Shown here one piece after another: positions 10,076 through 29,540 of a stretch of 64,000 nt of DNA. Origin of the DNA: Halichondria panicea (Eukaryota; Porifera; Demospongiae; Suberitida; Halichondriidae); assembly GCF_963675165.1 (NCBI RefSeq), contig NC_087377.1:4712042-4776041 (forward strand), read 5' to 3'. Below the pieces are notes generated by a model that was given only the letters and a program-made list of their open reading frames with translations, was not told the origin of the DNA and did not search any database. A program made the position numbers and the translations under genes. Position 1 is the first letter of the stretch, and the number at the start of each line of letters is the position of its first letter.

Positions 10076-11251
10076 TTAGGATGTTGCATCGTTTGTGTCA
10101 ATTATTGTGTACTAATGATAATTGTATTGAAATGTGTTCTTTTGTCTGTTTAAATATCTATTTTCTCACTCTAAATGTAGATGCTCATGTGATCAATCAA
10201 TGACAATCGCGTACTGGGCGTGGAATCAAAAATATGATGTGTCATGACAGTGGACATTACAGGTAATGTTTACACATATTAAATACATAATTGATAAAGT
10301 TGCTCACTATATTACAGGCACCCATTAACGTGTTGAAAACGACTCGTTGGACAATCATAATTATTATGATGATTTAATAATAGAATCTCAGGTGAGATAT
10401 TAATGTCAGTGTTCAAACATATAATAATGTGCTTGTGTATTACTAGTACAGTAATGTTGCAGACGTAAACCAACGTCAGTTCTTATGATCGTTCTCAAGG
10501 CCTGGAAACTGCTATTAAATCATAAAGGTACTATTTCTCACAATGTAATTATTGTCTACCGTATACCTCTTGACTAGGTATCGATGTCGATCTCTCAGAT
10601 ATGTCGATTCTGTTAAATTACCGACCGGTAAGCTAAAAGCGAGCTAAGTTTGAAACTCTGTAATGGCATACTTCTTTTCTCATGCAGGCTACCATGATCA
10701 TACAAGTCATTGAAAGTGAACATAATGATGGTAAATAATACAAGTCAACACTAGGTAGCCTTTAAGTCACTCATTTTGTGTCCAGCTAGCTGTTGTCTTG
10801 TGTTTCTTGTCTTGTTTCTTTCTGGTGCATGCTGTATATATAAATTATATTTTTGATTGAACTTTGAACTCAACTCTAAATAATTACAATGACATCATTA
10901 ACTAGTACGATTACATAGCATGAACGGTCGACAGTCTATCAGCTCGTTTGTGTGATTTATACGGTAGCTATCACGGTCCATCACGGTAGGTTGACGGGTG
11001 TAGACGTGTAGCAAACGGGGACTTTGGCGGGTACCGTCTGAGCGTGCCCGTCTAATTGGTCCCAATCCGGGATTACACGGTGCCCGTTTATTGAAACACG
11101 GGATACCGTTTATTGACCCGTTTCATCTAATAGTACGGGCGCACACTGTACCCGCATTTGTCAGTAGTTTTTGCTGTGTTAATTAATGGATAATTATGGT
11201 GGCTAGCCTGCAGAGGGAGCTGTACAATGCTAGGGTGAGTAGGATTGCTTG
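10076..11251. other. Spacer between the minisatellite and the CACTA element
   Basis: AT-rich sequence with several AG/GT pairs (around 10260, 10318-10391 and 10688-10733) but no open frame longer than a few codons between them. The last 270 bp is the GC-rich inverted repeat partner of 8270-8420. The CACTA target site TTG is at 11249-11251. I see no gene here. Confidence 0.6.
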
Positions 11252-11520
11252 CACAGGGCCAGATAGGGTAGTGTACAAGTTGTGGACTATGATGTACACT
11301 AAAGTTTACATCATAACATACAATGTTGTACACTCTTAGTGTTTAGTCTTGTACACTATTGTAGATGAACTAAGTCATATAGACTAGTGTACAAACGCTG
11401 TAATCTTCAAGTATCAGTTATGTAAACTCCATTGTAGACTCACAAAAATGTGGAAACTCCCGTGTAAACTACATTGTAGATTCAGAACTTTTGTGTAAAC
11501 TCGCTTGTAAACTCATTGAT
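11252..11520. repeat. Left terminal repeat and subterminal repeat region of the CACTA element
   Basis: After the 26-bp terminal repeat come repeated GTACAC, TGTAGA and GTGTAAACT motifs in both orientations. These are the expected binding sites for the element's accessory DNA-binding protein by analogy with plant CACTA elements. Second copy at 51194-51462. Confidence 0.8.
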
Positions 11521-11816
11521 AAATTAATTTTTTTAATGACATCATCCAATACTTTTTCACAACCATGCATGTGCACAATAATTATGTTCACAATGTTCAT
11601 GTCACTGGACAGCTTGATCGCGAGCTTGAGCATTATCTGCAGTTGAATAATAAAGTTTGCATAATAAAAATTTGTAAGAGTGTTTGACTTACCATCTGGC
11701 GAGACGTTCTCTTTGTTGCGTGATGTACCTAGTTAAATAAATAGAATTACAACGTGATTTGTGCACTATACTCACTCTGAATAACATCGCTGTTGACAGC
11801 CCATTTAGGAGCATCA

Positions 11817-13014
11817 TCATCCCGGTGGTGTAGTATTGGAAGGTTCACCCAGCTTCCGTACTTTTTTAGCCACTAACCCTGGAGATGCAGGTTGCTTCTT
11901 GGCAATGCGTGAGTCTAGTGTGCTCATGAAAGTGGAAAGTCCTTTAAAACAATAAGCAGGGTGATGTGACGTATTGCCAACAAAAAAAACTTACTCTCAG
12001 AACGCCAGTCAAGTTTGTGTTCAATGATACCATTGGGGTTGTCTGGATCTTCACTCTCTTCCGTGACATAAGCCAGACTGAGCAATTTCCAATACTTATC
12101 CATCTCGTTCTTTGTTACCACAGATGACCGCCTTTGAAATTTCTATAATTAAATAGCAAATAAAATACTACTAGTTTATCATAAAAATTAATACTCACTC
12201 TTTCACGCCGAGAACGATACTTTCTGCGTTTGGACTGTTGCTCAACGAGCTCTTCTTTTCCCGATTGTTGTTCAAGGAATGTCCGCCTTAGGTTTTCATA
12301 ACATCTCCTTACTGCAACTGTGGAAACATTAAATACTAAAGACGGAAAGTATGCAATACCTACGTCTTATATCTTTGTCACTAAATTTGCATTCAGGTTG
12401 ATCTTGTATCTCTTGCACAATTGTTTCTTGAACACCTTTGTTGTGACTGGAAGAGAATCTATTGTTTACAAAGAAGAGTCTTTTAGGCATGGCAGTTAAA
12501 ATGTAAACGTACACTTCAGATGTATCAAACAGAACATCCAGTTGCTGCATATACTTTGCACTGAGGGAGGGGAGAAATACAAAACGTGTTAGCTGTGTAG
12601 TCAATGGGCATGCCTAGCTAGGAGTTTACGTACGGATAATGTGCGAGTGACCACACGTTTTCGTTTCCCATCAGAGCTGCTTGAGGGTGAGGAGTTCATG
12701 TGTTGAGAGAGAAGGATCTGTTCCTGTAAACTAGCCAGTTTGGTATCCATTACACTTTGACGTAATTCCATTGCTTGTTGTCCATCAAGTACTTTTTGAA
12801 GTTGAGCTTGCTGCTGTTGCATCATAGTCATAAGCTGATCAGCATGGGAAGGAGGGGCATCAGAGCGTGTATAAACTTGCTGATCAACGGTATGGAGGCG
12901 GTCTACTACGTCTGGGTCATCCAAATCACCAAAGCGAAAGTCTTCATTGTCAGACATTTCCTCTCTGTCATTCATAGCATCATCAACTAAGTCTTCCAAA
13001 GCCATTCTAGGCAT
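11817..13014 (-). CDS. Transposon accessory protein: coiled coil plus basic region
   Basis: Minus-strand gene; exons 13014-12630, 12560-12515, 12446-12364, 12317-12199, 12142-11995 and 11941-11817, with matching phases (1, 2, 1, 0, 1) and stop TGA at 11819-11817. The N-terminal exon is acidic, then Gln-rich coiled coil (MMQQQQAQLQ onward), then Ser-rich with KRKR. Exon 4 has the very basic run SKRRKYRSRRER; exon 5 ends in LDWRSE. No database family is recognised. By position and character it may be the TnpA-like DNA-binding partner of the transposase. Exon 2 and its phase are the weakest part. The frame may extend upstream of the ATG at 13014. Confidence 0.55.
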
Positions 13015-13352
13015 GTAAGCACTAGATCTAGATCTGTCACGAGGTACAGGTAGTTGTGTCCTTTGGCTTTGGGAAACAGTAGATTTGGATCTTGATGGAG
13101 TTGTGGTAGAATAAAAACAGTGTGGTTGGTAGGCTATCGCACCGCTATAAGCAGAGGTACGTATAATAGACTTCTATAACAATGGCTGAACCACGTGTTC
13201 AATGACTTATAGTTCACGTGCTGATCAGTTATTAGGCCACGCCCATCAATACATTTTGGGAAGAGGGCGAGGCTTGCTATACTGGTCTGAGATCCGACCA
13301 CATGATGTCACTCCGACCACATGGCTGAGGTATTACAACCACACACAAATAC
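13015..13352. promoter_or_regulatory. Divergent promoter region between accessory gene and transposase
   Basis: The accessory gene reads left and the transposase reads right from this 340-bp gap. The frame of the accessory gene stays open for about 130 bp upstream of its ATG, so part of the gap may be coding. No TATA box was assigned. Confidence 0.35.
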
Positions 13353-13806
13353 ATGTACAATACAATGGAAAAGCGATTCCACTGTGAACATTGCAATGAA
13401 AAAATAAGCAAGGCACTCTACTACCAGCACAAACAGCTGTATTATTCATCTGCTGCTAACAGTTGGACGTGTGATTTAACACCAGGACACGACATACACA
13501 GGGCTGAGCAAGAATTTAGCTTCTCGGACGATGAGATGGAGGAGACTTCATGTGAAGGAAATGAATCAACAGCTGACACCGGTATGAATATTTAGATAAA
13601 AAAACATGCCATTTTTAGATTAATCACTGTTTTACAGAAACTGTCTATGAACAAGATCAAGATGACAATATCATGAGTTCGAGTACAAGTGGTGAGGAGG
13701 ACACTGACGATGATTTTGAGGTGGATGCTGACGTGAGTATTTCCTGGTGTATATAAAACACTTAATTAATACCATGATTGTGCATACCCACCAAGAGCTT
13801 TGCATA

Positions 13807-14140
13807 CCGGCAAGAGTTTATGATAGAGAGAGAGTATCGAACGTAGGCATACTGTGTATCAGATGTATGCGGAGAGTAACGTGACTTCCTGTATCTGTCA
13901 CAAGCTTGGAATTTGCACACTGACCAATCCAAGCGTGGGTGATGTAATCTATCAACCCATCCAAGTGTAGGTGATGTAATCTACTTTCTTGATAGATGAC
14001 ATCACCCACACTTGGATTGGTCAGTGTGCAAATTCCAAGCTTGTGACAGATACAAGAAGTCACGTTACTCTCCGCATACATCTGATGTACAGTATGCCTA
14101 CGTTCGATACTCTCTCTGTATCATAAACTCTTGATACCGG
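13807..14140. mobile_element. Long-hairpin MITE in transposase intron 2 (second copy 53749-54082)
   Basis: Two arms of about 150 bp are almost exact reverse complements (for example CAAGCTTGGAATTTGCACAC against its complement), with outer CCGG and AAGAGTTTATGA. The centre is near 13960. It is a foldback-type non-autonomous element with no coding capacity. Confidence 0.85.
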
Positions 14141-15043
14141 TGTTTATCCCAGTATTTGTCAGTTCTGCCCTCGAAAAAAGCGCCCACAAAAATTTCCCCC
14201 ACTATACGGTATACATTTACATGTGGAGCTAGTTGTGTCTGTATATAATAATTCTTATTTGTTTAGGATGATGACACGCAGTTAACAGAACTTTGGTTTG
14301 ATAATGACACTGATGATGATGAAAATACTACTGTAAAAGGTTCTCAAGTAGAGTCAGCAGTCCTACGGATGGCAAGATTATACGCTGTATTCATTCTAAT
14401 GTGGCAGACACTGTTCAACACTGCAAAAAATTTTGGTTGAAACTACATTGCATAGTCGTTTTAACACTATTCTTAAACAGTTGAATCAACTTAATATTTA
14501 GTAAAATAAAAAGACAACGTTAAAATAATCAGTATTTTTTTTATGTGGTTTTAACTTAAAATATTGTAGAATCACACAATGTCTTTTATTTCTACAATAA
14601 TTTACATACAATCTATTATTGATATCTTAAATCAAACTAACAAACTCATTTTGATTAAATTATATTTGAAACTCTATCATGCAGCATGTTAGAATACAAT
14701 ATATAAATTTAGATTTAACAATAATAATATTTGTTCTAACACAGGCACACATATAATTATATACAATCAATATTTTTAACAATCCATTTATAATAGCATG
14801 AGTGATGTGAAATTATATACAGTCATGAACATTGTAAGGAAATGTACAAGTTTGCATAGAACCATAGATATTAGAGGACCTAGAAACTAAAATGAAATTG
14901 TGGGCGTGGCTATGCTAAGTCTAAGATTGCGCATGCTCAGTAGATCTAGAGCTGTGAAACCATGTGCTCCAAGAAAAGAGAAGACGATTACCCTTTCTAT
15001 ATGCTGGACATTTGCTGCTATAAATCTGACTGTGATGATACTT

Positions 15044-15260
15044 CTGTGAGAGGTGAGGGACAGACATGAAGTGTTCTCAACAGTATAATTATAAGACTTT
15101 AATAGGTATGACTGTGACTACACCAAGTGGATGATGATACTTTTAGTTCCGTGAGAGGTGAGGGACAGACATGAAATGTTCTCAACAGTATAATTACAAG
15201 GCTTTAATAGGTATGACTGTGACTACACCAAGTGGATGATGATACTTCTGTGAGAGATGA
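15044..15260. repeat. Tandem direct repeat of about 105 bp (second copy 54986-55202)
   Basis: GTGAGAGGTGAGGGACAGAC with the following 85 bp (ending GTGGATGATGATACTT) occurs twice in a row, with the start of a third unit after it. Confidence 0.8.
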
Positions 15261-17186
15261 GGGACAAACATAAAGTGTCTAGTTTTCTGGTGAACACTGT
15301 CACTGTCCTACAGAAATTCCTTAAACTGGCAAGCTTGACATGCGAGAACGAACGAAACAAACAGACGAATGGATAGAAGTGGCGTCATTGTTGGATATCC
15401 TCTCGGTGATTGATAATACACGGTAATAATTAATATCAATAACAATGATGTATTTACTATTATAGGTGGACTCTGTGTGGTCAAGAGTGATCGGTCTGCT
15501 ATACTTGTGAGTCCAGTATGTTACACCAAGAAGAACTATTCCTTGGGCTAATTAATTTAAAACTAATTTAACATTGTATACCATTGTCTCGGGCATTTTC
15601 GAATCAGTTTTTATTGTTGAATCTGATAGGGCGTCCTTTAAGCTTCAAAATGATACCAAGATCGACCTCCTAGCTACTTTCTTTCCGGAGATATGTTCGA
15701 GGGAACGCTACGAGGTATTGCAACGCCCTGCCCTCTTGAGTAAATGATGCTCAAACGTCATGATAATTGAAGTTCAATTATTGGCTTCCGGGCACTTCCG
15801 TATACTCATAAAGCTTAGTAAAAGATGTTCTGGAGAAGACAAGTTAGTTAGATGAAGGCTAGGCGTTCTAGGACTCTCTAGCTAGCTAGTATAGCTATGT
15901 AGCTGGATTGCTTGGCACCTAGGAAGGATCTTTGAAGAAATAAAGAGACAAAGACTCCTGTCGCTCAAATGGTAAGCTCTCATGTCTTGTTATAAGCTTG
16001 TACTTATTATCTGTGTAATGTATCAGTTTTATAAAAGATCCCTCACTTGTATGGAGCCTACAGAAAGTGTCTCTGTCCTTCATACAGCTTAAAGGAAGCC
16101 TAAGTGATCTATTATAGGTAGTCTTTCACTTAGTATTCGTCCGTATTCGTCCGTATCGATCTAAGGCTTGATCTAACTTATTAGTAGCCTTATAAGAAGC
16201 TTTCCTCCTTTAATTTAGTACTGGTATCACTGCCATTGTGCTTAGTAGTAACAGGCCTGATGGGATGGGTGATCACATCATGGAGGGCCCAGGAAACTGC
16301 GTGGAATTGTCGTATAACATTTATATTGATTGTTCCCCCAGGTGGTGGTAAGTGTCGGAGGCCTGAGAAACGCTAGTCTATTGGCTAGGATGTAAGTGAC
16401 ATTGATATTGTGTCTATCTTAACTTACTACTTATCTGTAGGTTGTTATGGAGTGTTTATGAGGACAAGTGGCACGGGATACGTACATCTAAAGAAACAAG
16501 AGTGGATCTACGCCAAGCTAGCTAGCTAGATAGCTGCTCTTTCTAATCTATTTCTGTTGCTAAATTATGTTTGTTAAGAAGTGGAGCTATAATATACCTG
16601 GCTCCTCTTGATGATTGTAAGTACTGGGCTGATGAAATAGTCCTGTAAAAGTTGTCATCTTTTATTTGTTAAAAATAATTAACAATAATAGGGAAATTCC
16701 CTGGGAATTTCCCCTCACGTAGACAGTTAATTTCATTGTAGAAAATAAACGTTCGGTGAGTTTCTTCAACGTCCGCGCTTGACCTGTTTAAAGCTTCATA
16801 GAGACCCAAATTTTTACAGGTAGGTAGAGGAAGGGTTGAAGTTAGCACCTGTGAAAAGAAAAATTTTTTGCCCATGTTTTTCATTTCTACTAAATTGGCC
16901 TATAGCTTAATTTAATTATTGCCGCGTTAAGGTCTGTTTTCATTGGCCCTGTCACATTTTTGTATTAACATGTTATTTATTGAATTGAATAATAATTGTT
17001 ATACCGATTCATTTGTAAATCGTTGTTTTAGGAATTTATTTAGCTATAATGAGTCTTATTTATTATGATAAGTATTTTCTTAATGGTTGTTTTAATGTAT
17101 GGCTTAAGTAGATTTGACAATAAAACACAATAGTTTTAACCTAGCAATAATAATGTTAAAACTACATTTATACATTAATACTTATA

Positions 17187-17393
17187 CAGTTGAGCCTCGG
17201 TTATCCGAATCCCGGTTATCCGAATCCTCGATTATCCGAATGCTAGAGCATAGTGCAATCTGAGCATGTGCAGTAGGAAATTGCCCACGTGGCTGGCAAA
17301 AAGAAGCCAGCTGGCATGTTTTGATTATCCGAATATTTCACTTATCCAAATGGGCCCGGGGACAAAGGTGTTCGGATAACCGAGGCTCAACTG
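17187..17393. mobile_element. pogo/Tigger-type MITE, unit 1 (second copy 57129-57335)
   Basis: Terminal inverted repeats CAGTTGAGCCTCGGTTATCC are flanked by TA on each side (17185-17186 and 17394-17395). The TIR and TA duplication are those of pogo-like Tc1/mariner elements. No transposase. Confidence 0.88.
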
Positions 17394-17409
17394 TAAGTAT
17401 TTTTAAATA

Positions 17410-17606
17410 CAGTTGAGCCTCGGTTATCCGAATCCCGGTTATCCGAATCCTCGATTATCCGAATGCTAGAGCATAGTGCAATCTGAGCATGCGCAGTAGG
17501 AAATTGCCCACGTGGCTGGCAAAAAGCCAGCTTTTGATTATCCGAATATTTCACTTACCCGAATGGGCCCGGGGACAAAGGTGTTCGGATAACCGAGGCT
17601 CAACTG
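17410..17606. mobile_element. pogo/Tigger-type MITE, unit 2 (second copy 57352-57548)
   Basis: The same TIRs and TA duplication as the neighbouring unit, 14 bp away and very similar. It differs by a few substitutions and two short deletions in the middle, so the two are independent or slightly old insertions rather than an assembly echo. Confidence 0.88.
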
Positions 17607-20600
17607 TAGTTGTTATAATTATTACATAAAAGTTGAATTGACGCTTTTTGTACTTCGTTAAAGCTACATTAATAAAATTAATGTCACCTCAGTTTCAATT
17701 GTTTTGACCATTAAAAAAATTGTTAAATTGATTAATTTTTTTTGTAGTGAAGGTGTCTAATTCAGGAATCAACATAATTTTCATTTTTTTTGCGAAGCTG
17801 CTTTCTCTACTTGTTGTTTCGAGTGCTTCTCTTAGAGAATTAGCACAGATAATCCCCAAAAACCTAGGGCAAGCAAAAACATTGATTGGACAAGAAAAGG
17901 ATTCATTTTCCAAGTACGTCTCTTGTCCTAAATGTCATACCACATATGCTTTAAATGTATGCACTGTCACTCTACCTAATAAGACGAAAGAATCGAAACG
18001 TTGCTCATATGTCAAGTATCCTCACCATCCCCACACTCGACAGAGAAATCCTTGCAATGAACAATTGATGAAAAAGATTCGAACATCAGCCGGAACTATT
18101 TCTTGGTACCCTCGTCAGACATACTGTTATCAAAGTGTTGTTGCTTCTTTAAAAACGTTCCTACTTCGACCACACTTTCATCATTCATGTGAATTGTGGA
18201 GAAATATTGAAACTGATCCAGGCACTCTTCGCGACATATGTGACGGGAAAGTTTGGAAAGATTTTTTGACCCCATCAGGTGTGCCATTTCTGTCTGTGCC
18301 TTACAATTATGCATTGACGATAAATATTGATTGGTTTCAACCCTTCAAGCATAGTCCCTATTCTGCTGGAGCAATTTATATCGCCATTCAAAATCTTCCA
18401 CGGCGTGTAAGATACTTAACTGAAAATGTTCTGCTTGTTGGCGTTATTCCCGGTCCTCATGAGCCAAAAGGAGATATTAATACCTATTTAAAACCTTTAG
18501 TTAATGAGTTAAAGGAACTGTGGACTGGAGTTGTCATGCCAACTGCTTCTGGTACACAAGTGTTGGTACGGGCCGCCCTAATTTGTGTATCCTGTGATAT
18601 ACCTGCAAGTAGGAAAGTGTCGGGATTTGTGGGGCACAACGCATACCGTGCCTGTTCGAGATGTTTAAAACCCTTCCCTACCGAAGTATTTGGACAGAAG
18701 GCTGATTTTACAGGCACTGACCGTAGTAATTGGACTAAACGCTCCACAATCTCACATCGTGATCAGGCACAAGCTCATAAAGAAGCAATAACAAAAGCAC
18801 AACAGAAGCTAATAGAAAGAGAGCATGGATGTAGATACTCCGTTCTACTTGAATTACCATACTTTGACGTTGTTAGGTTCTCAGTTATAGATCCGATGCA
18901 CAATTTGTTGTTAGGCACAGCAAAGCATGTTCTATCTGTCTGGACGTCACTTGGTATACTAGACAAGACACATTATTTGAGTATACAAGAGAAGGTTGAT
19001 AGATTTGTTACACCCCCTGAAATTGGCCTTATTCCTTCAAAGATTGCTTCGGGTTTTTCAAGTTTCACAGCCGATCAATGGCGAAATTGGACTCTTATCT
19101 ATTCACTGTGCTCTTTGAAAGGAGTAATTCCTCACAAAGACTATGACTGTTGGTTGCTGTTTGTTAAAGCTGTTAACATACTATGTCAACGCCAAATTAC
19201 TCTACGTAACTTAGAGAAGGGTGATTCTTTGTTGATGGATTTTTGTAAACTATTTGAACAACTTTATGGACAAAGAAACTACACGATCAACATGCACCTC
19301 CACGCTCATCTGATGGAGTGTGTTTTAGACTTAATTTGGCCTTGTTTATTCTTTTTGGCTATTCAGCTTTGAGCGTCTTAATGGGGTGCTAGGCTCATAC
19401 CACACAAACTGTAAGAACATATCACTTCAGCTCATGCGACGTTTTATGTCAGGCCAATACTATGGTGCCGAAAATTGGCCAATTGAGTTCAGGGAAGAAT
19501 TCTATCCACTACTAGTTCATCACACCTACGATAAAGGCTCCCTGCAAGCTTGTTCTTTGGAGCAAGCACTGGCTCAAACACAACATTCTCGATCGGTCAC
19601 CATTAAACCGTCATTCCCTATTATCGAAAATGCATGCACTGTAAAAACTGGAAAGTGACCGTCACCACCAAAAGGTAGTGAAATACCTGCCACAATAGTC
19701 ACCGCAAATCGACTGGTGACCTTCACCACTTTTTCAAATCACTACATTTAAGTAGTGACGATCACTACATTTAGGTAGTGAACATCACCAGAGCTAGTAA
19801 AAATCACTATACAAAAATTCTGAAAATGTGCACAGAAAATTATAACAAGCATTATGCTTAGCTACTAGCCTAACATAATTATAATAATAACAGTGTCTAA
19901 TGGCTTGAGTTGATCATCAGTTCTTGGCTGTCTTTACATCCCAACCTCCTCCCTCCTCCTGTATATGCATGAAGAAGAAAGTATGTTTATTTTATTGACG
20001 AATAATAGACAAATATAAAGTCATAATAATTAATTATGTAGGTTGGAAGTGTGTACAAATTAGATTATGTGCCGGGGGATATCGCATGATTAACAAAAAA
20101 ACTTTTGCATACCTACTGAGCTTCATTATACGTGCATACGTACCGGTAAACCACGTTTACGTTTTCGTTGGGTAATTACCTGCTATGTTACATAAGCCAA
20201 ATAAAGTAATCCATGATGTCACAAATACTGGAGTATGCGTGAAGCTGAGCCAATTATAGCTACAGAAAATAGCAGGCACAATTATGTTTACAAGAAGAAG
20301 GATCGGCCCGGACTAGTGATATACCTGAACAGCACACTGGAGAGCCAGGGAGACTATGCAAATTCTATATAGAGCAGTAATCTTAGGAATCAATTATTGT
20401 GAGCAGAACAATAACTTTTGGAAGAACTGCTGTACTGCAAGCCTTGTCAGAACAATTAATAGCTTGCTATAAATAATTCAAAATAAATGTTAACAATGGG
20501 TCTGCCTAAAACTCTGAAGAGGAACAGCTATATATACAACTTGCTATCATAATCATACTGAAAATTAAGGTCAATGTGCTATATACAGGTGGCAGATTCA

Positions 20601-20628
20601 ATTGCATACCATAATTATTAATTTTGCG

Positions 20629-20953
20629 TGATCAGAGGCCGCGGTTACTTATTTTCCTGGCAAAAGATGCTACAATTTGTAAGGCCAATGTTTAAATTCA
20701 GGTACAGTTTTCTTTCATCTGCACACATTCAAACTCAGCCATGGGACAGTCTCTTAACTAAAGCACTAGCGATCTGCTACCAAGCTAACTGGCACATATA
20801 GATACCGTGCAGTATCAATATGCAGTATCAATAAGCATGGCTCCCACTGCAAATATGTCTCAGTGAGGGTCAAAGTTCACTGAGGCTACCAATAAAGATG
20901 CAATTGAGATCCTACTATTCAACCTTTATAATTGTAAGAGCGGCCTCTGATCA
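20629..20953. mobile_element. MITE with TGATCAGAGGCCGC ends, inside the nested element (second copy 60571-60895)
   Basis: TGATCAGAGGCCGC at 20629-20642 is inverted at 20940-20953. Related copies are at about 900-1170, 22130-22520 and 36360-36560. Confidence 0.55.
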
Positions 20954-22129
20954 AGCATAATTTATATACATGCAGATTAGGGGGTGTTTAGTAACCAAAC
21001 AAATCTAGTAACAACAATTCTACAAATCTTTTGCTGACTTTATATAGGCTAAGTACAAAGATGTGATACGAAGAGAGGTTGAAGTAAGACAATTATTTTT
21101 TTGGAACAGTTACACTGTCTTGTGTGCAAAAGTAGGACTAACAGAACGAGTGTTGCAAGCGTGCGCTTGCTAATGCCTCTGCCAGACAGACAGACAGACA
21201 GACAGACACACACACACAGTCAGCTTTACCGTATCCCTCGTGCGGCTACGCCTCGAGGCATAACTAACATATTAATCACTGACAACAAATTGTGGCAATA
21301 CGGCAGCAGCACATACCTTGATTTATGCCTATACTTTAGGGTGTCCAGTAGTATAGTTGCTCCACACGTTGTTTTTTTACTTCATATCCTGCAAGTCAAT
21401 TACAACAGTTACTGAACGCAATAAAGTGTGTAACAACAATAACAGTATAAATAAACAGCAGGTGCTGATGCCTTGGTGGGTGTGTCAAAACTATTGTCCA
21501 CTATTTATGGCAGTAAACCTCCGAAGACGAGGGCGAAGTCTCGAGGCCAAGGATGATTTAATGTTACCATAAATTTTATAATTATAATTATACCCACTGA
21601 AATGAAAAATGCTTGCTGTATACCTAAGCTAACTCACCTTGCAAGGACTAGTAAACAGTCTTAAAAACTATTGAAAATGAACAAAAAGCTTGTGTGTATA
21701 TAGCTTGTATAGCCAGTGCTAAACTTCTAGCGCTACGCTCTAACTTGTCCATGTGTGTAACGAGCCTACCCATCTGTCCTGCCATTGCTAACTTATTTTT
21801 GGCTCTTTGTGTATATAGATCTAACAAAATCAGTGCGCCCTTAAGGCAACGGAGTTATGTTAGTGAAACTACACCCAGTTGCTATGATACAAACCCCAAG
21901 CGGGACATAAAGCTACTAGCTATTGCTATAAATACATCATGATGACATGATTGCTGCGACACTTAAAGAGAAAACACTACATGCAACGGCATTCCAAGTA
22001 TTAGAGCAAAATTACCCATAACTCGGGAACGATGCTATAGAGCTTTTACATTATACTTGCACTTCGTGCTCATTGGAACAGCTATGGCAATATACACACA
22101 GACAGACAGTCACATACACACACAAACAC

Positions 22130-22520
22130 AACTACTGTTATGTCGCTCATCTGTATATGTATATGCTTGATCAGAGGCTGTGCATGGCTACTAAATGTTA
22201 CAAAGGAGGCTACAATTCGAGAGAGCCCATTGTTCAAGAGAGGTGTTTATTAGCCCTAGCTAATAAGTAACTATATGTATGCCACAAGAAAGTCTTCTAA
22301 AAGCACTACTTAAACAAGCTGCTACCCTAGCTAGCTGCTACCGTAGATACCAATCAACCATGTGCAGAGACATAGCTACTATTTGAATGCGGCCTTCAAG
22401 CATATAACGGCAATTAAGCTGCAACCGTAGATACCAGTATTAATATGGCTGCCAAGTGCAGAGACATAGCCTCAAAGTTCACTGAGGCTACTATTTGAGA
22501 CCAGCTTCTATTGAAGACTA
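22130..22520. repeat. Dispersed repeat inside the nested element, inverted relative to 900-1170
   Basis: The sequence from TGATCAGAGGC through AATTCGAGAGAG and CATTGTTCAAGAG to CTAGCTAGCTGCTACC is the diverged reverse complement of intron sequence at 900-1170. This links the nested transposon to repeats in the host gene's introns. Second copy at 62072-62462. Confidence 0.5.
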
Positions 22521-24380
22521 CTTTATACGTATAAGCATCAGTAGTTCGAATTCTACAAATTTTGCTGCATTAAAAAAAGAACAAAAGAGGATGGATGATT
22601 TTAGGATGGACGATTATTGTGAGAGTACAGGAATGTAAGCCCTACAATGCTGAGAGGGTTAGCCTGGAGGTATTACAATGTGAAGTCCCTATTTTGCTTC
22701 TGAACTAGTATAATTAATTAACTCACTTGTGTTGTGCATGCTGAATGAAGCTTAGGGCAATGGGCTTTAATTGGTCTCCCCTTCGTTTAAGCCCTATTAA
22801 ATGAGAAGTGTTTACTTGCACTTTGCTTGTCCTTCATGAGAAATTCGGTTCTGCATAAAATATTAATTTAAACTGTGCAGCATGTTGAGGAACTTACCTA
22901 GTTACACAGTTTTGTCAAACAACTCTCAAAGCGTTCTCTAAAAGCTCCACTTGTCTGCTTCTACTCCAGCAAATAAATTATTGTTGATGTGCAGCTGCAG
23001 ATTTGCAGCTGCATAATTGCACGTGCCCTTATTTGGTCATAGGTCTATTCAACAAACAAGAGCGCGCAAGGATTATTCTGAGGATATGGATATGGAAGGA
23101 GCTAGCTAGCTAGCAAGCTATCTAGATCTTCCTATTACAGTTCAATTCAGTGACAAGGAAAGGCATTTGGCAGTCTTATATTGCTGCTACTAAAGGATAA
23201 GGAATAGTAGTGTGTGGATGAATAACAATTTCAGTGTTGAATCATGTAGCTTAGATATTGATGTCGTGTAACATCTTATAGTAAAAGCATTCCATGAACT
23301 GTTTTACTGAGGCAATTATGGTTAACAGTAAGCCGGGTTGCGTGTTGACTATGTCTTGGTGACTCAGTTTCTGTAAAATAGACCACTAAATCTAGATCTA
23401 CCTGGTACGGGTTAGCAGTAAGTCGTGTTGCGTGTTGATCGGCCAGGTACAGAAACCTCTTTTCAAAGATGTTACACAATTAATACATAGCTTCAACTAG
23501 TAATTGTATTTGTAAATTCGTGTGAATCAATTGTTAATTAGTAAAATCTTATTGTGTACTGGCCTTAATAATACGAATGCAGATATGCCATTGTAACTGT
23601 TCAAGCTAGCAGTAACGTTATACGTCTATGGATTGATAATCTCATGCTTCTCTTTCATTGCAGAATATGGAATGCTGCTCAGGCAAAAAAGCTTAGTGAG
23701 ATATCAGGGCACCTGCACCATGGGGCCTCTTTGCAGCCTTTATACTTAGCCAGCAAACTAGATCCATCAAGCATCTGCCTGAGTTTGTCACTCCCTTAGA
23801 TTTAACGGCATAATTATTATTGATACTGATTGCCTTAAAGTTACAACTAAAGCTTACGTCTGTACCTGTGGGGAGTGGTCGGGAATAGTGTATTATTTAT
23901 GTCCCAGTTTGTCATCATTGCCAGTTTGTCATCATTGTTAGGGGAGGAGCAATTGTAATAATAAATAATTATGTACTGCAAATTGTGTACTGCAATGTTA
24001 GGTAAACTTCATGTTGTTTCAACTTTACAGTCAGTGCATGGTGGATATTAAAAAGACACCATTACATGATCGTATAATTATAATTATAGTAAATAGCCGA
24101 CCAAACAGACGTCATGTACTGATAGAAACTTGTAGAATAATTATAGTCTGTTGTATTCTTCTGACTTGGTCTTCGACGGTAGCAGGATCAGGATAGACCG
24201 TAAAAATGATAACTTGTGACTTTCATGAAATATTAAAGTATCACATTGCATGCTGCATGCCTATATATGGAGCTTGTTACACACACATGAGGTATACAGG
24301 GAACAGTAATTAAGTTAAGTGAGAGGTACCATACTGTGATGAACGACTTAGGACAATCGAGTCACCGCGGCGGGTTGAAT

Positions 24381-24415
24381 CATAGATAGTAGAAAGAAAG
24401 ATTTCTACTATCTAT
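24381..24415. mobile_element. 35-bp palindrome with 8-bp direct repeat flanks
   Basis: ATAGATAGTAGAAA is inverted as TTTCTACTATCTAT around a 6-bp loop. GGTTGAAT occurs immediately on both sides (24373-24380 and 24416-24423), as after an 8-bp target duplication. It is too small for any coding function; it could be a minimal hAT-like derivative or a repair scar. Confidence 0.55.
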
Positions 24416-25222
24416 GGTTGAATGTAGTGAGGGACTTTGGTAGTGACCGTCACCACAGTTGGTATTGAGCTATGTGGTGAAGGACTTAGGTAGTGACCGT
24501 CACTGCGATTGGTAGTGAGGATCACCACATACACAAATCACCACCATGTAGTGATTCGCTTAGGTAGTGACCATCACCACATTTGGTAGTGACGGTCACC
24601 ACCCTGTTTTTACAGTGTGGGAATCATATCAGAAAGATATGTTAGATCGTATTATAATGTCGGTAGCTGTAGGTCACAACAATTGCGCTCTTTTGTCCTT
24701 ATATGAAAGCACAGCGAGTCTCACAATAGATGGATTCGTGCTTGGCTCTGCAAACAGTCGCTATGTCACAAAGTCTCATGTGATGGCTTGTCACCCTATC
24801 TATCCAGATCAGCTTCATCTAGCAAGAATTGAACGTTTTTGCAAGATAAACATAAAAGCATATTCCGGTGCATCTCAATGTACAAGTTTCCAAGTTTTGT
24901 CTGAATGGATTGCTTACGTCACTTTTTACGATGAGCATAATTGCAAAGTCTGGTTTGGAGGTCCTACTCAAGTTTGGGCTAGATCATTGTCTACATCTGA
25001 ATATGTTCGATTATCTAGTATAAAGAAAAGAGTGGCTTTTTGTGAAACAGACATTGACTTTGGTAGAGTAATAGGAACACAAAGGGTACTGGTAGTGTCA
25101 CTATTGTCCAACTGAATTTTTATTTTCACATGTATATATATATACGCACGGCACGTACATGCAATGGTGTAATTTTCTTTGCATCGTCCCATAATGAATT
25201 CATGGCATGGATCACTTGCAAT

Positions 25223-25228
25223 TTTATT
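25223..25228 (-). terminator. Likely polyadenylation signal of the kinase gene
   Basis: AATAAA on the minus strand, about 70 bp after the kinase stop codon at 25296-25298. Its position supports the kinase being a transcribed gene rather than a chance open frame. Confidence 0.5.
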
Positions 25229-25295
25229 AATGAGTCATGTGCAAAAGGGTAAATATTAATCACAAAATTAATTATTAATCTAAGCTAAATATAAC

Positions 25296-26482
25296 TTAAA
25301 TCTTACAAATAACATCAATTCCATTTTGCGCAGTAGGCCTGAACAAATATCTTGGAGAACGACATTTGACTGAGAAGTCATCTATGGCTTTCCTTACATG
25401 TACATCACCTCTGAGCATTTTACTCTCTAGCATTCTGATGAGAATACCACCAACAGCATACATGTCACTCATTTTGGACTGTTTTGTTAGTCCTTCGACA
25501 ACTTCAGGTGCAATATGGGAATAGCGACGGATATATTCGGCCTTTTCACTTTCAGAGAGGTGGTATCGTTTTCCTCGTTCTACTGTTGTTGCTTTCCCAA
25601 AGTCTATCACTACTAGCTGCATATACCTCCGACTTGATGAATCAGTTACCGGTGCCTCAGTAAGGCTCTCGCCAATCAAAATGTTGTTGCACTTGAGATC
25701 ATTATGTAGGACGTGAACTTCATCATGCAAATACCGCACTGCTTCCATAAGTTGGGCACAAAGTGTTAAAACTGTTTCTTTAAGCTGTTCAATCATGGTA
25801 GAGAAAGCATCAGTCAGTGTCATCGATGTAGTTCCAAAACCATGAAATTGCATTACAATCCTGAGTGGCTTCGTAGTAGTTAATACACCAAACAAGAAAG
25901 GTAGATGAGGGTGAGAAAAGCGAGCTAAGATATTTGCTTCTTTGTTAAGATCGTCTAGTAATGAGTGGGGGAGCAGTTCTTTCACAGCCACTTTTACATT
26001 ACGAAACAGCTGCATCTTAACAATACCAAATGATCCCCGACCAATATACATTTCAGTACTTTCTGTCACATCTGGTGGATCATGCAGCAAATCTTGATCG
26101 ATTTCGTGTACATGTACATTTACCTCTCTCGTGACGCTTGAGCGTGTCCGATGCAATGCCCTCTCACGTGCCATACTCTCCTTTCTCTGTTGAAGCTCCC
26201 ACCGCCACCTCTCCCAATATGATCTAGACATATTTCTATATAGCACCACATTCTTCTCCGCTTTATTCCTTAAAGCCTTTTCCTGGCTTAAATGGGCCTC
26301 AACAGCTTTTATTCTTGATTTCCTTCGCTTTTTTCTCTCGCTTCTCATTTTTCTCTTCTCTTCGAGGGTGTTAGATCGGCTATATCTTTTTTCCAGCACC
26401 TGTACTGTTCATAGTAGCACTAGAATGTGGCAAAGGAGACTCAAGCTCTGCACTTGGACTTATTGCGACCGTAGCCATTTTT
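25296..26482 (-). CDS. Transposon-borne eukaryotic protein kinase with HND catalytic loop
   Basis: Minus strand, about 25-26 kb inside the CACTA element, converging on the transposase (180 bp between stops). The main frame is 26399-25296 (367 codons from GTG). It starts with a Lys/Arg/Glu-rich, probably coiled-coil region (residues 1-90), then a kinase domain: glycine loop IGRGSFGIV at 119-127, VAVK lysine 140, alpha-C Glu 154, LHNDLKCNN at 231-239 (Asn in place of the Arg of HRD; catalytic Asp 234 kept), DFG 266-268, APE 297-299, and RPTAQ near the end. Ser/Thr specificity is suggested by DLKxxN. An ATG at 26482-26480 opens a compatible N-terminus of about 30 residues, but it meets the kinase frame one base out at an A6 run (26383-26388). 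That is a frameshift, base error or missed intron. Confidence 0.82.
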
Positions 26483-26727
26483 AATTCTAGCAAAATGAAC
26501 TTTGAACCTAAAATAATGTTCAAAAATCAACTTTGAACCTTCTGACCTTTAACACGAGGTACATATCATAACTAGCTAGCTAGCTAGCTGAGACCTTTAT
26601 CTGTACTGCACTGTACTGTATTGTGGTGCTAGTGCAGAGGAGATACTTAGCTATTTAAACTATCTCTTTGCGAGGACAAAACTCTAGGAATGTGAATTGG
26701 CAGGCTAAACCAACCTACATGTACCCC
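26483..26727. promoter_or_regulatory. Divergent spacer upstream of the kinase gene
   Basis: 245 bp between the kinase ATG (reading left) and a possible small exon (reading right). It contains a CTAG-rich palindromic run (26573-26592). Probable kinase promoter by position only. Confidence 0.3.
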
Positions 26728-26784
26728 ATGGCCGACCCAACGATTGCGCAATTGCTGATCCGGACAGGATCCACTGTGAAAATT
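26728..26784 (+). CDS. Possible first exon of a further small transposon gene
   Basis: An ATG followed by 18 more codons (MADPTIAQLLIRTGSTVKI), then a strong GTGAGT donor in phase 0. A plausible 3' part is the open, protein-like stretch at about 27683-27800 (two Cys pairs, C-E-C-C), but no junction could be proven because a MITE and minisatellite lie between. Function unknown. Confidence 0.25.
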
Positions 26785-26842
26785 GTGAGTGATTAATAAT
26801 TATTACTACTATACTATTATACTATACAACAGTTGTTAAGGA

Positions 26843-27090
26843 AGGGCTGCATTGAGGGAATGGAGAAGAGAGTAATTCACCCCCGCCCCCCTACGATCTG
26901 GCAGATTCATTAATAGGCACCTAAATTGCACCAGAATCGATCTAAGGCCCTCAAATTAAGCCCCCAGACCCTTCTAGTTTGGCTTTCACTGTGAAACGTA
27001 CAGTTCGCGGATATCTTAGTTCGCCCCCCTTTCATTTGCCCCCCCCCCCCTGTCCTAAAATCCTCAAATGAAAGTCCTGGATGCAGCCCT
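26843..27090. mobile_element. MITE with AGGGCTGCAT ends
   Basis: AGGGCTGCAT at 26843 is inverted as ATGCAGCCCT at 27081-27090, with C-rich interior runs. No coding capacity. Confidence 0.6.
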
Positions 27091-27120
27091 GTATGCCAAA
27101 CATTACAGCAGTCGTTTTCT

Positions 27121-27192
27121 TTTTGTGTGTGTATGTCCTATCTTTTGGCAGTGCATATTGTCAAGATGTCTCATCTTTTGGCAATCTGTTAA

Positions 27193-27223
<31 letters not shown>

Positions 27224-27680
27224 TTAATGTACTGCAAAGATGTCCCATCTTTTGGCAGTACATATTGTCAAGATGTCTCATCTTTTGGCAATCTGTTAAC
27301 GTTTATGTGTGTGTGTTTTTAATGCACTGCAAAGATGTCCCATCTTTTGGCAGTACATATTGTGAAGATGCTTTTGGCAATCTGTTAACGTTTGTGTGTG
27401 TGTGTGTTTAATGTACTGCAAAGATGTCCCATCTTCTGGCAGTGCATATTGTCAAGATGTCTCATCTTTTGGCAATCTGTTAACGTTTGTGTGTGTGTGT
27501 GGGTGTGTGTCCCATCTTTTGGCAGTACATATTGTCAAGATGTCTCATCTTTTGGCAATCTGTTAACGTTTGTGTGTGTGTGTGTGTGTTTTTTTAATGT
27601 ACTGCAAAGATGTCCCATCTTCTGGCAGCGCATATTGTCAAGATGTCTCATCTTTTGGCAGTTTGTGTGTGTGTTTTGAT
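27121..27680. repeat. Minisatellite with GT tracts inside the CACTA element
   Basis: Six or so units of GATGTCCCATCTTTTGGCAG, a spacer, GTCAAGATGTCTCATCTTTT, then GGCAATCTGTTAACG and (GT)n of variable length. The paired CATCTTTTGGCA core closely parallels the unit of the 9085-10075 minisatellite outside the transposon. Open frames across it are repeat by-products. Confidence 0.9.
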
Positions 27681-27899
27681 ATATACGATTCTTTTGTGAA
27701 TGAATTACCAGCATGCAATTTTCGCCACACCCAGATTGGACTAAAAGATTGTGAATGCTGCCTGCCACAAGCAACAAAAGTAGCTCTCATTATCTCAGTT
27801 AATTTTTATAATGTTAATCCATGTAGATCATTGATCATCTTTATATACTTTTTGTCGTAAACAATTCATCAAGCGCAGACGCATACGTAACTATACACA

Positions 27900-28170
27900 T
27901 AATTATAGATAAATGTAAAACACCCAGTGAAAGTCACGAATTCATTTGCATTGTAAACTTGCTGAAAACTTGCTGTAAACTAGATGTGCCCAGTTTACAA
28001 TCATGTACATCAAATAACAAGTTTACTGTTTGGGAATCTACCTTGTAGTCTTCGTGCCACAGTTTACTTGCATGTAAACTAATCCTATTTGTATATCTCT
28101 GTAAACTATGATGTACATATCAAGTCTACAAAAATGTATATTGCTGTACACTACCCTATCTGGCCCTGTG
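27900..28170. repeat. Right subterminal repeats and terminal repeat of the CACTA element
   Basis: At least eight TGTAAACT or AGTTTAC motifs plus GTACA motifs in both orientations, ending in the 26-bp terminal repeat. The motif set matches that of the left end. Confidence 0.82.
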
Positions 28171-28173
28171 TTG

Positions 28174-28823
28174 TTGTTGACAGTTTCAATCAGCTTGGTA
28201 GTGATTCACACTCCCTAATAAAGTGTTGACATTGTGTCATCTAGTAGTGGGAATCACTATAACACTTATTGTAGCTAATTAGTGATAATTATATTGATAT
28301 TTTTATTTGTTCCTGTATAAATAGCCATGCTGCGCTTCTGCGCAAAAAGTTGATACAGTTTTCCTGGGCTTTGGCTTTTAATAGAATGATCCCTCACATA
28401 CTTATATGCAGATAGTTAGGTACTTCGGTAATAGATTTGCTGAATCAGCGATTATCAGCAGGCACTCGACTGAGACAACGTGAAGTATTGCATATCTTGC
28501 CGTTGCTAGGCTACACCATCAGTATCGTGACCTCAAGGTCAGTGCAATTGAACCTCTTTATAACGGACACGTTTGAGGAACAAAATTTTAGCTGTACACA
28601 AACTGTTCATTTAGGACCTGGTCTTTATTATTATATCATATAGACTATATGATGCACAGTTTGTCTGTTTGATGCAAAAAAAAGAACCTAATAACTGAAT
28701 TTGAAGATAGCTGTTATATACTGTCTCTACTGATCTAAACCCAAACTAATCTCAAGCCTACTCACCAAGGAGCTCGCTTTGTTTCAAGTCTACTCACCAA
28801 GGAGCTCGAGGCTGCACTGAAAG
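28174..28823. other. Right flank of the CACTA element, no gene seen
   Basis: AT-rich sequence with a short direct repeat (CTACTCACCAAGGAGCTCG at about 28758 and 28788) just before the retrotransposon open frame. It may be the 5' untranslated part of that element. Confidence 0.45.
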
Positions 28824-29540
28824 ATGAAGTTGGAGAAATGGACTCTATTTTTGTTTTTTCTGGTATGGCTCTCACGCCTAAGCACGCTCAAGGATGGTCC
28901 ACCAGGCGCATGTAGTATGTTCTCAAGCTGTATGTTAACTCTACCTGCTGGACAGTCCCAGAGATCTACTTTCAGGAGATCAAGTAAAATCTCTCAGTCT
29001 TTGGGCTCTAATTGGAACCTAAACAAAGCACACAAACTCTACTTCCTAGTTATCCTTGTTCTCTCTGGCGATATTCAGTCTAACCCTGGCCCTGTTGTCA
29101 ATTGGAAGTACCCTTGTGGAAAATGCAACTGTTCTGTAAAGACCAACCAAGCTGGAATCATGTGTGAAGTCTGCTATGCATGGCACCACTGCAAATGTGT
29201 CTGCATTGATGATTCTGAGTATCACAGGCTCCAGTTGTCTGATGAAGCATGGTGTTGCTCCTCTTGCTTCAGGACAGCCTTGCCGTTCCATGACTCATCA
29301 ACACTAAACTCTACCATCAGCTCAACCTCTTGCTCTACCTCAGACTCTATTTCTTCCTCACTCGCCAGTTCTCATGGAAGGGACTGCACAATTGTGTACA
29401 CTAACTGTCGCTCCCAAAATGGATATCCTTCGTACCCATGCTGCCTCCTTTTATTTGGAGCACCCCCCTTTAGAGAGGGTTCAAAGGTTACGCCGACAAT
29501 GACAACTGTAGATCAATTTGGAGCAGTTCCTTTTAGCTGA
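28824..29540 (+). pseudogene. Non-LTR retrotransposon 5' fragment: hydrophobic leader, 2A-like motif, PHD finger
   Basis: The 238-codon frame starts at ATG 28824. Residues 1-20 are hydrophobic and a second hydrophobic stretch (71-81) precedes GDIQSNPGP (82-90), a 2A-type ribosome-skipping motif with Gln where the consensus has Glu. Then comes a PHD-type zinc finger (Cys 98, 101, 114, 117, His 121/122, Cys 145, 148 by spacing) and a Ser/Thr-rich linker. VYTNCRS at about 29397 resembles the start of an APE endonuclease domain, after which similarity stops and the frame runs into unrelated sequence. Endonuclease and reverse transcriptase are missing, so it is a truncated, immobile copy. Confidence 0.75.

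Follow-up and report, generated by a model that had tools for sequence, protein, structure and literature searches.

A eukaryotic protein kinase gene as a probable accessory gene of a CACTA/EnSpm transposon lineage in Halichondria panicea

The element and its genes

The window analysed here is a 64,000-nucleotide stretch of the Halichondria panicea genome (contig NC_087377.1), and it contains a 16.9-kb CACTA/EnSpm element at 11252-28170, a DNA transposon of the same kind as plant En/Spm. The element is bounded by a perfect 26-bp inverted repeat, as the first-pass annotation of this DNA had reported: the left copy (CACAGGGCCAGATAGGGTAGTGTACA, 11252-11277, forward strand) pairs with the right copy (28145-28170, reverse strand) at a 100% match. 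Target site duplications (TSDs) of TTG were read from the sequence on both flanks, at 11249-11251 and 28171-28173, and two related insertions, L018 and L019, are flanked by TTA, all within the 2-3 bp range. The termini have the form CAC..GTG (CACAGGGCC...GGCCCTGTG), with the literal CACTA absent and CACAG in its place (CACAG..CTGTG). Further, the subterminal repeat TGTA[AC]ACT occurs 10 times in the left 350 bp (11252-11601) and six times in the right 350 bp (27821-28170), against means of 0.21 (maximum 3) and 0.11 (maximum 2) in 500 first-order Markov resamplings; the two ends of L018 hold six and six, and those of L019 seven and three. The element is assigned to CACTA/EnSpm because of its CACAG..CTGTG termini, 3-bp TSD, clustered subterminal repeats and Transposase_21 protein. 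Its dispersed copies suggest movement by cut and paste.

Three genes are arranged from left to right as an accessory gene on the reverse strand, a transposase gene on the forward strand and a protein kinase gene on the reverse strand. The accessory gene has several exons (11790-13173, limits approximate), including an open frame at 12601-13173, and homologues (E 5e-10) were found at L017-L020, L024, L026 and L027; the exons tested against Pfam matched no family above its cut-off. The element also contains a fold-back at 13811-14133, with 145-nt arms that are 96% complementary and spaced by 33 nt.

The main part of the transposase gene (17732-19372) encodes a tnp2-type Transposase_21 domain (PF02992, E 7.5e-20; 1e-16 in L026). 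Its frame breaks near 19,335, and in-frame similarity to L017 and L026 stops at residue 533. The C-terminal part, which has homologues in L017, L018, L019, L021, L026 and L027, resumes at 24618-25115 on the same strand, behind a nested element of 5 kb (19637-24617; ends CACTG...CAGTG, TSD TG; empty site in L017 and L018) that splits the gene. Another nested element also lies in the transposase gene (14419-17749; ends CACTG...GTAGTG, TSD AA; empty site in L017). The 16.9-kb size is inflated by these two CACTG-ended elements. The window copy is unable to make a normal transposase, because the gene is split by two insertions and its frame is also broken near 19,335. A short element is present twice side by side at 17185-17608, and its ends, TACAGTTGAGCCTCGGTTATCCGAA, recall Tigger/pogo-type elements.

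The interval between the kinase and the right end holds a tandem array (27133-27660; CATCTTTTGGCA.. and GT runs) that is common to L017 and L018. Outside the right end, an open frame at 28821-29540 carries a PHD-like Cys/His pattern and the sequence SGDIQSNPGP, and Pfam gave no family for it at E<=0.1. SGDIQSNPGP resembles a 2A-like peptide of non-LTR retrotransposons.

The kinase gene

The kinase gene occupies 25296-26348 on the reverse strand, between the transposase and the right end as first described, and lies tail-to-tail with the transposase gene at a distance of 180 bp. It encodes 350 aa from the first in-frame ATG (26346-26348) of an open frame spanning 25296-26408, with a basic N-terminus, a predicted long helix and an HND-type kinase domain. 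The gene end had been placed near 26482 by the first-pass annotation; the ATG there (26476-26478) is in another frame, which stops after 32 residues. The description of a eukaryotic-type kinase with most catalytic landmarks is borne out by Pfam, in which the protein matches Pkinase (PF00069) at E 1.8e-25 and 90.2 bits against a curated cut-off of 31.7. The landmarks are the Gly loop GRGSFGIV (26019-26042), VAVKE (25977-25991), KEANIL with the alpha-C Glu (25926-25943), the catalytic loop HNDLKCNN (25683-25706), DFGKA (25590-25604), APEVV (25497-25511) and RPTAQ (25326-25340). The Lys, alpha-C Glu, catalytic Asp, catalytic-loop Asn, DFG Asp and APE are all kept, with Asn in place of the HRD Arg.

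The eukaryotic protein kinase family includes non-RD kinases; the missing HRD Arg bears on regulation and leaves membership in PF00069 unaffected. Among 15 aligned rows of transposon kinases, HND was found in nine and HNN in one, the other five being broken or uncovered at the motif. The first 60 residues of the window kinase are basic, and a low-confidence structure model (mean pLDDT 47, built from five sequences) places a helix at residues 2-65, in a part with pLDDT 62-83. By sequence, the best 60 of 961 PDB matches are mostly Tec-family tyrosine kinases (ITK at the top with 9.9e-15; BTK) and also include MST1/2; these matches name no kinase group.

Copies with related ends

Searching the genome for the end sequence with up to three mismatches gave 10 places, and the reversed control gave none. 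The window element and its tandem duplicate account for four of the 10: window positions 1-24058 and 39943-64000 are the same with one mismatch in 24,058 bases, which defines a 39.9-kb (39,942-bp) tandem duplication. The identical second copy is part of this duplication and was ruled out as an independent insertion. The duplication itself either arose recently or stems from the assembly, for instance from a haplotype that was left unmerged.

The kinase is present in two other copies. L018 (C2) is a 4.6-kb element with ends that differ by one and two mismatches, TTA/TTA flanks and a broken kinase inside. L017 (C3) retains one exact end, the other being eroded, and its kinase is 99% identical to that of the window over the 336 codons compared, with a broken frame. 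Between L017 and the window, the stretch covering the transposase C-terminus and kinase C-lobe (24618-25824) is 99.75% identical and the right end 99%, while other long stretches show 93-95%, a pattern possibly left by gene conversion between the two copies.

Other relatives lack the kinase. No kinase match was found in L019 (C1), which has ends with two and three mismatches, TTA/TTA flanks and a transposase, nor in L026 (one related end seen) and its near-copy L027 (no end seen). At the kinase place, L026 and L027 have a coiled-coil gene instead (211 residues in L026). This gene was considered as a remnant of the kinase N-terminus and rejected, as sequence and profile scans gave no significant similarity; a loss of the kinase domain from the same gene in L026/L027 would be without support. 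The first-pass annotation had regarded a consistent lack of the kinase among same-end elements as the mark of a one-off capture. The lack is real in L019, L026 and L027 and is not consistent, with the kinase found in L017 and L018. The kinase is not a one-off capture, being carried by two independent insertions whose ends equal or nearly equal those of the window element.

Association of kinase and transposase across the genome

Genome searches with the window kinase and transposase returned at least 110 and at least 95 matches, respectively. For the kinase, 43 of the 110 rows (E<=1e-8) were condensed to 39 loci; for the transposase, 78 of the 95 rows were used to define 49 loci, the other 17 rows being at loci already present. 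Of the 39 kinase loci, 12 have a related transposase at a distance of at most 6 kb, compared with 0.21 on average and never more than 4 in 5000 circular shifts, for which two contigs without kinase loci were entered with approximate size. Eleven of these 12 adjoining pairs are convergent; the 12 include the tandem duplicate. Because the shift control breaks up the zonal clustering of transposons, orientation deserves more trust as an argument. Judged by position, a second transposon described below accounts for 19 of the 39 kinase loci and a kinase array on C9 for five; outside these, 12 of 15 adjoin a transposase. The transposases of the kinase-bearing relatives have identities down to 34% (34-66% between families), and the claim that a CACTA element carries the kinase is strengthened by its recurrence in these related families as well as in the second transposon type.

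Seen from the transposase, a kinase neighbour is present at 13 of 49 loci, two of the 13 being pieces near one C14 kinase. Eight of nine further transposase tails (L058-L066, 4-4.9 kb each) gave no kinase match, and L063 has a kinase remnant. At two C9 loci, kinase and transposase run in the same direction. In L020, L022 and L024, accessory-gene fragments are found on the far side of the kinase instead of the far side of the transposase, with kinase and transposase still tail-to-tail. Scans with the kinase alignment gave no confirmed relative in viral_contigs and genome_contigs, a result of little weight given that these collections are viral and prokaryotic.

A second kinase-bearing transposon

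The second element is 6.7 kb long with ends CATTGCCAGC..GCTGGCAATG (10 bp matching), for example at L028:2604-9326, and is present as 14 full-length copies with 99-100% identity, which shows that it moved recently. Its products are a spliced protein of 727 residues, a protein with a chromodomain (PF00385, E 1.4e-12) and a kinase of the transposon clade with the HND motif. The 727-residue protein, its putative transposase, matched no Pfam family above cut-off, and no similarity to the CACTA transposase was detected (E 0.42). Among 12 copies inspected for TSDs none was consistent, one having TGT on both sides and one lying in a CA repeat.

The kinases of the second element and the window are 34% identical (E 3.3e-24), and a profile comparison of the two kinase types with the L028 row excluded gave E 1.5e-26. 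A value of E 1.5e-53 from a profile that contained the L028 row itself was discarded as inflated. The 312-residue kinase frame is intact in 10 of the 14 full-length copies and broken in four; three of these four, and one split copy, share a break at the identical place. The kinase is not needed in cis, because young copies of the second element carry a broken kinase.

Descent and selection

A tree of 26 kinases, built without the short sequences L025, L033 and L034, unites 12 transposon kinases and L079 (HND) in one clade (100/99), separate from the 13 other kinases sampled from the match list. Of these 13, 11 carry HRD and one HRN, and in the last the motif could not be recognised. Among the 13 others sampled in this genome, no host gene is nearest to the window kinase; greatest similarity to a unique host gene was an outcome that the first-pass annotation had named as pointing to a one-off capture.

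Agreement between kinase and transposase trees, also raised at the outset, is partial. The comparison included 10 kinase and 13 transposase rows. The group of window, L017 and L018 has 100/99 in both trees, and the group of L022, L037 and L024 is present in both the transposase and the kinase tree (86/88 and 93/91). The other nodes are mostly weak, with no supported conflict, and pairwise identities of transposases and kinases are uncorrelated (rho 0.16, p 0.32, 42 pairs), which we attribute to saturation and decay and which yet counts against tight co-divergence. In the transposase tree, the window groups with L019, L021, L026 and L027 (100/100). The kinase-bearing L020, L022, L023, L024 and L037 lie outside this group, and the simplest history would therefore be that the ancestor had the kinase and that it was later lost or replaced in L019 and L026/L027.

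Ratio tests covered the window kinase against eight loci and L028 against three, with L023, L025 and L035-L037 outside the sample. Against L020, L021, L022, L024 and L034, the window kinase has pN of 0.38-0.44 with pS of 0.80-0.88 in five of five comparisons; pS is saturated, as is dS, so that no ratio is given, and because the copies compared are mostly broken and enter with nothing but their alignable segments, pN is lowered. The kinase protein was kept while synonymous sites became saturated, as far as the alignable segments tell. Closer comparisons gave w of 0.66 (0.51-0.87) for L018, 0.55 (0.32-0.99) for L033 and 0.84 (0-1.66) for L017, which is too alike, and the L028 kinase against its older relatives gave 0.51 (0.29-0.73) for L030, 0.74 (0.54-0.97) for L031 and 0.54 (0.23-1.21) for L032; these values include neutral decay after copy death. 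Purifying selection on the kinase, which had been suggested for testing, thus finds support in pN at about half of saturated pS and in w below 1, tempered by the neutral decay and by the 0.66 of L018. The intact kinase copies of the second element are too alike for a selection test. The kinase can also diverge faster than the transposase in some pairs, with pN of 0.44 and 0.20, respectively, between L021 and the window.

A kinase frame that is open across the whole domain is confined to the window copy, together with its duplicate, and to copies of the second element, and for this reason the CACTA family is mostly dead in this assembly. The kinases of L017, L018 and L021-L024 are broken, and in L020 the open frame starts where the Gly loop ends. 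All listed catalytic residues are kept in the window copy and, from the Gly loop on, in L020.

Possible functions of the kinase

We consider the kinase likely to be a selected accessory gene of the transposon, and, judging from sequence comparisons, it is somewhat probable that one CACTA/EnSpm lineage of this genome has long kept it as an accessory gene with a role in trans. The protein would act in trans, probably in the nucleus, where its basic, helical N-terminus may provide nuclear entry (suggested by the basic stretch) and pairing of the protein. Kinases of the non-RD type need no activation-loop phosphorylation for activity, and the same would be expected of this kinase from its missing HRD Arg. 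Its most likely substrate would be the transposition complex, that is, the transposase or the accessory protein, and phosphorylation could then control when or how strongly the element moves. This choice of target is tentative and is made because of the steady place of the kinase beside the transposase. A wider reading, to which we give slightly less than even weight, is that a clade of HND kinases has resided in DNA transposons since before the CACTA families split, has passed between elements with unrelated transposases, and serves the transposon by phosphorylating transposition or host-silencing proteins.

Alternatively, the kinase may act on the host by phosphorylating a putative silencing, chromatin or cell-cycle factor and so make the cell permissive, a reading to which we give only slightly less weight than to the transposition complex as target. 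A host target is suggested because a matching kinase of the same clade is present in a transposon with an unrelated putative transposase, and a shared host target suits two carriers better than a shared transposase target. The chromodomain protein of the second element and the spread of copies with broken kinases, as expected of an effect in trans, are in line with it; the steady place beside the CACTA transposase, however, fits a transposase partner as well. It is improbable that the gene descends from an old host kinase which an ancestral CACTA element picked up a single time and which has since been borne along without selection. Most CACTA kinase copies are indeed broken, some relatives have none and the w of 0.66 between window and L018 is close below 1, but the protein is still recognisable, with pN about half of saturated pS, across transposases that are 34-66% identical, catalytic residues persist in the window copy and L020, and the frame is kept in most copies of the second element, though these are too alike for a selection test.

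Two further explanations were considered. A host kinase family might adjoin transposons by chance in repeat-rich regions, and many loci do share contig zones (near 3-4 Mb) that circular shifts do not fully reproduce. We hold this to be very improbable: the kinase lies within matching ends and a TSD in both the window and L018, which contradicts it, the neighbouring pairs are almost all convergent, and the other sampled kinases form a separate clade that is mostly HRD. The kinase might instead have arrived on a separate mobile element nested in the CACTA element, given that nested insertions exist in the window copy. This is hardly credible, as the kinase occupies the same position in L017, which has neither insertion, in L018, which is free of the second, and in the more distant families. 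An accessory gene under selection is the reading that we carry forward.

Relation to known systems

According to excerpts of a study of fungal transposons, TET-positive IS3EU elements carry transposase and alpha-kinase genes in opposite orientations (PMC12730594), and a kinase-carrying DNA transposon therefore has a precedent. The likeness extends to a DNA transposon with a kinase gene opposite to its transposase; the superfamily, the fungal host and the alpha-kinase are different (PMC12730594). In our Pfam scans at E<=0.1, no alpha-kinase family appeared and PF00069/PF07714 were found instead. The same excerpts describe TET/JBP dioxygenases in fungal EnSpm elements, TET/JBP genes that pass between transposon lineages, and a proposal that the transposon-borne enzymes make the cell permissive (PMC12730594). 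The earlier description of known CACTA accessory genes, limited to DNA-binding partners and Ulp1-like proteases, is therefore incomplete. As in the present case, an enzyme gene thought to favour the transposon is common to unrelated transposon lineages; unlike it, the enzyme is a dioxygenase thought to act on DNA methylation and not a kinase (PMC12730594). CACTA/EnSpm elements, among them plant En/Spm and the fungal EnSpm elements of these excerpts (PMC12730594), share with the window element the 5'-CAC..GTG-3' ends, 3-bp TSD, Transposase_21, subterminal repeats and a second gene beside that of the transposase. The window element has, in addition, a gene for a eukaryotic protein kinase, placed tail-to-tail with the transposase gene.

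Among the titles and abstract beginnings listed in literature searches, none describes a eukaryotic protein kinase gene in CACTA/EnSpm. To our knowledge, a eukaryotic protein kinase as a recurrent CACTA gene is new, as is a kinase clade common to unrelated transposons in one genome. If the interpretation is correct, a eukaryotic DNA transposon would bring its own signalling enzyme, one kinase clade would be a mobile module used by unrelated transposons, and control of transposition or silencing by phosphorylation would become open to test in a natural system. The interpretation would also be a warning that part of the kinome of such a genome may consist of transposon genes.

The FunK1 kinases are similarly an expanded and unusual kinase family; they are fungal, and the excerpts of their description do not place them inside transposons (PMC3203195). 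Against the corresponding Pfam model (Pkinase_fungal, PF17667), the window protein gave no match at E<=0.1, and L020 gave E 0.014 and 14.6 bits, below the cut-off of 24.1. Expansion of another kind is apparent in two regions of the sponge genome, C9:541351-1333102 and C3:104355-1710818, where many single-frame kinase genes lie close together. All four kinases sampled from these clusters (L068, L070, L071 and L078) have HRD, and the clusters apparently represent a host kinase expansion.
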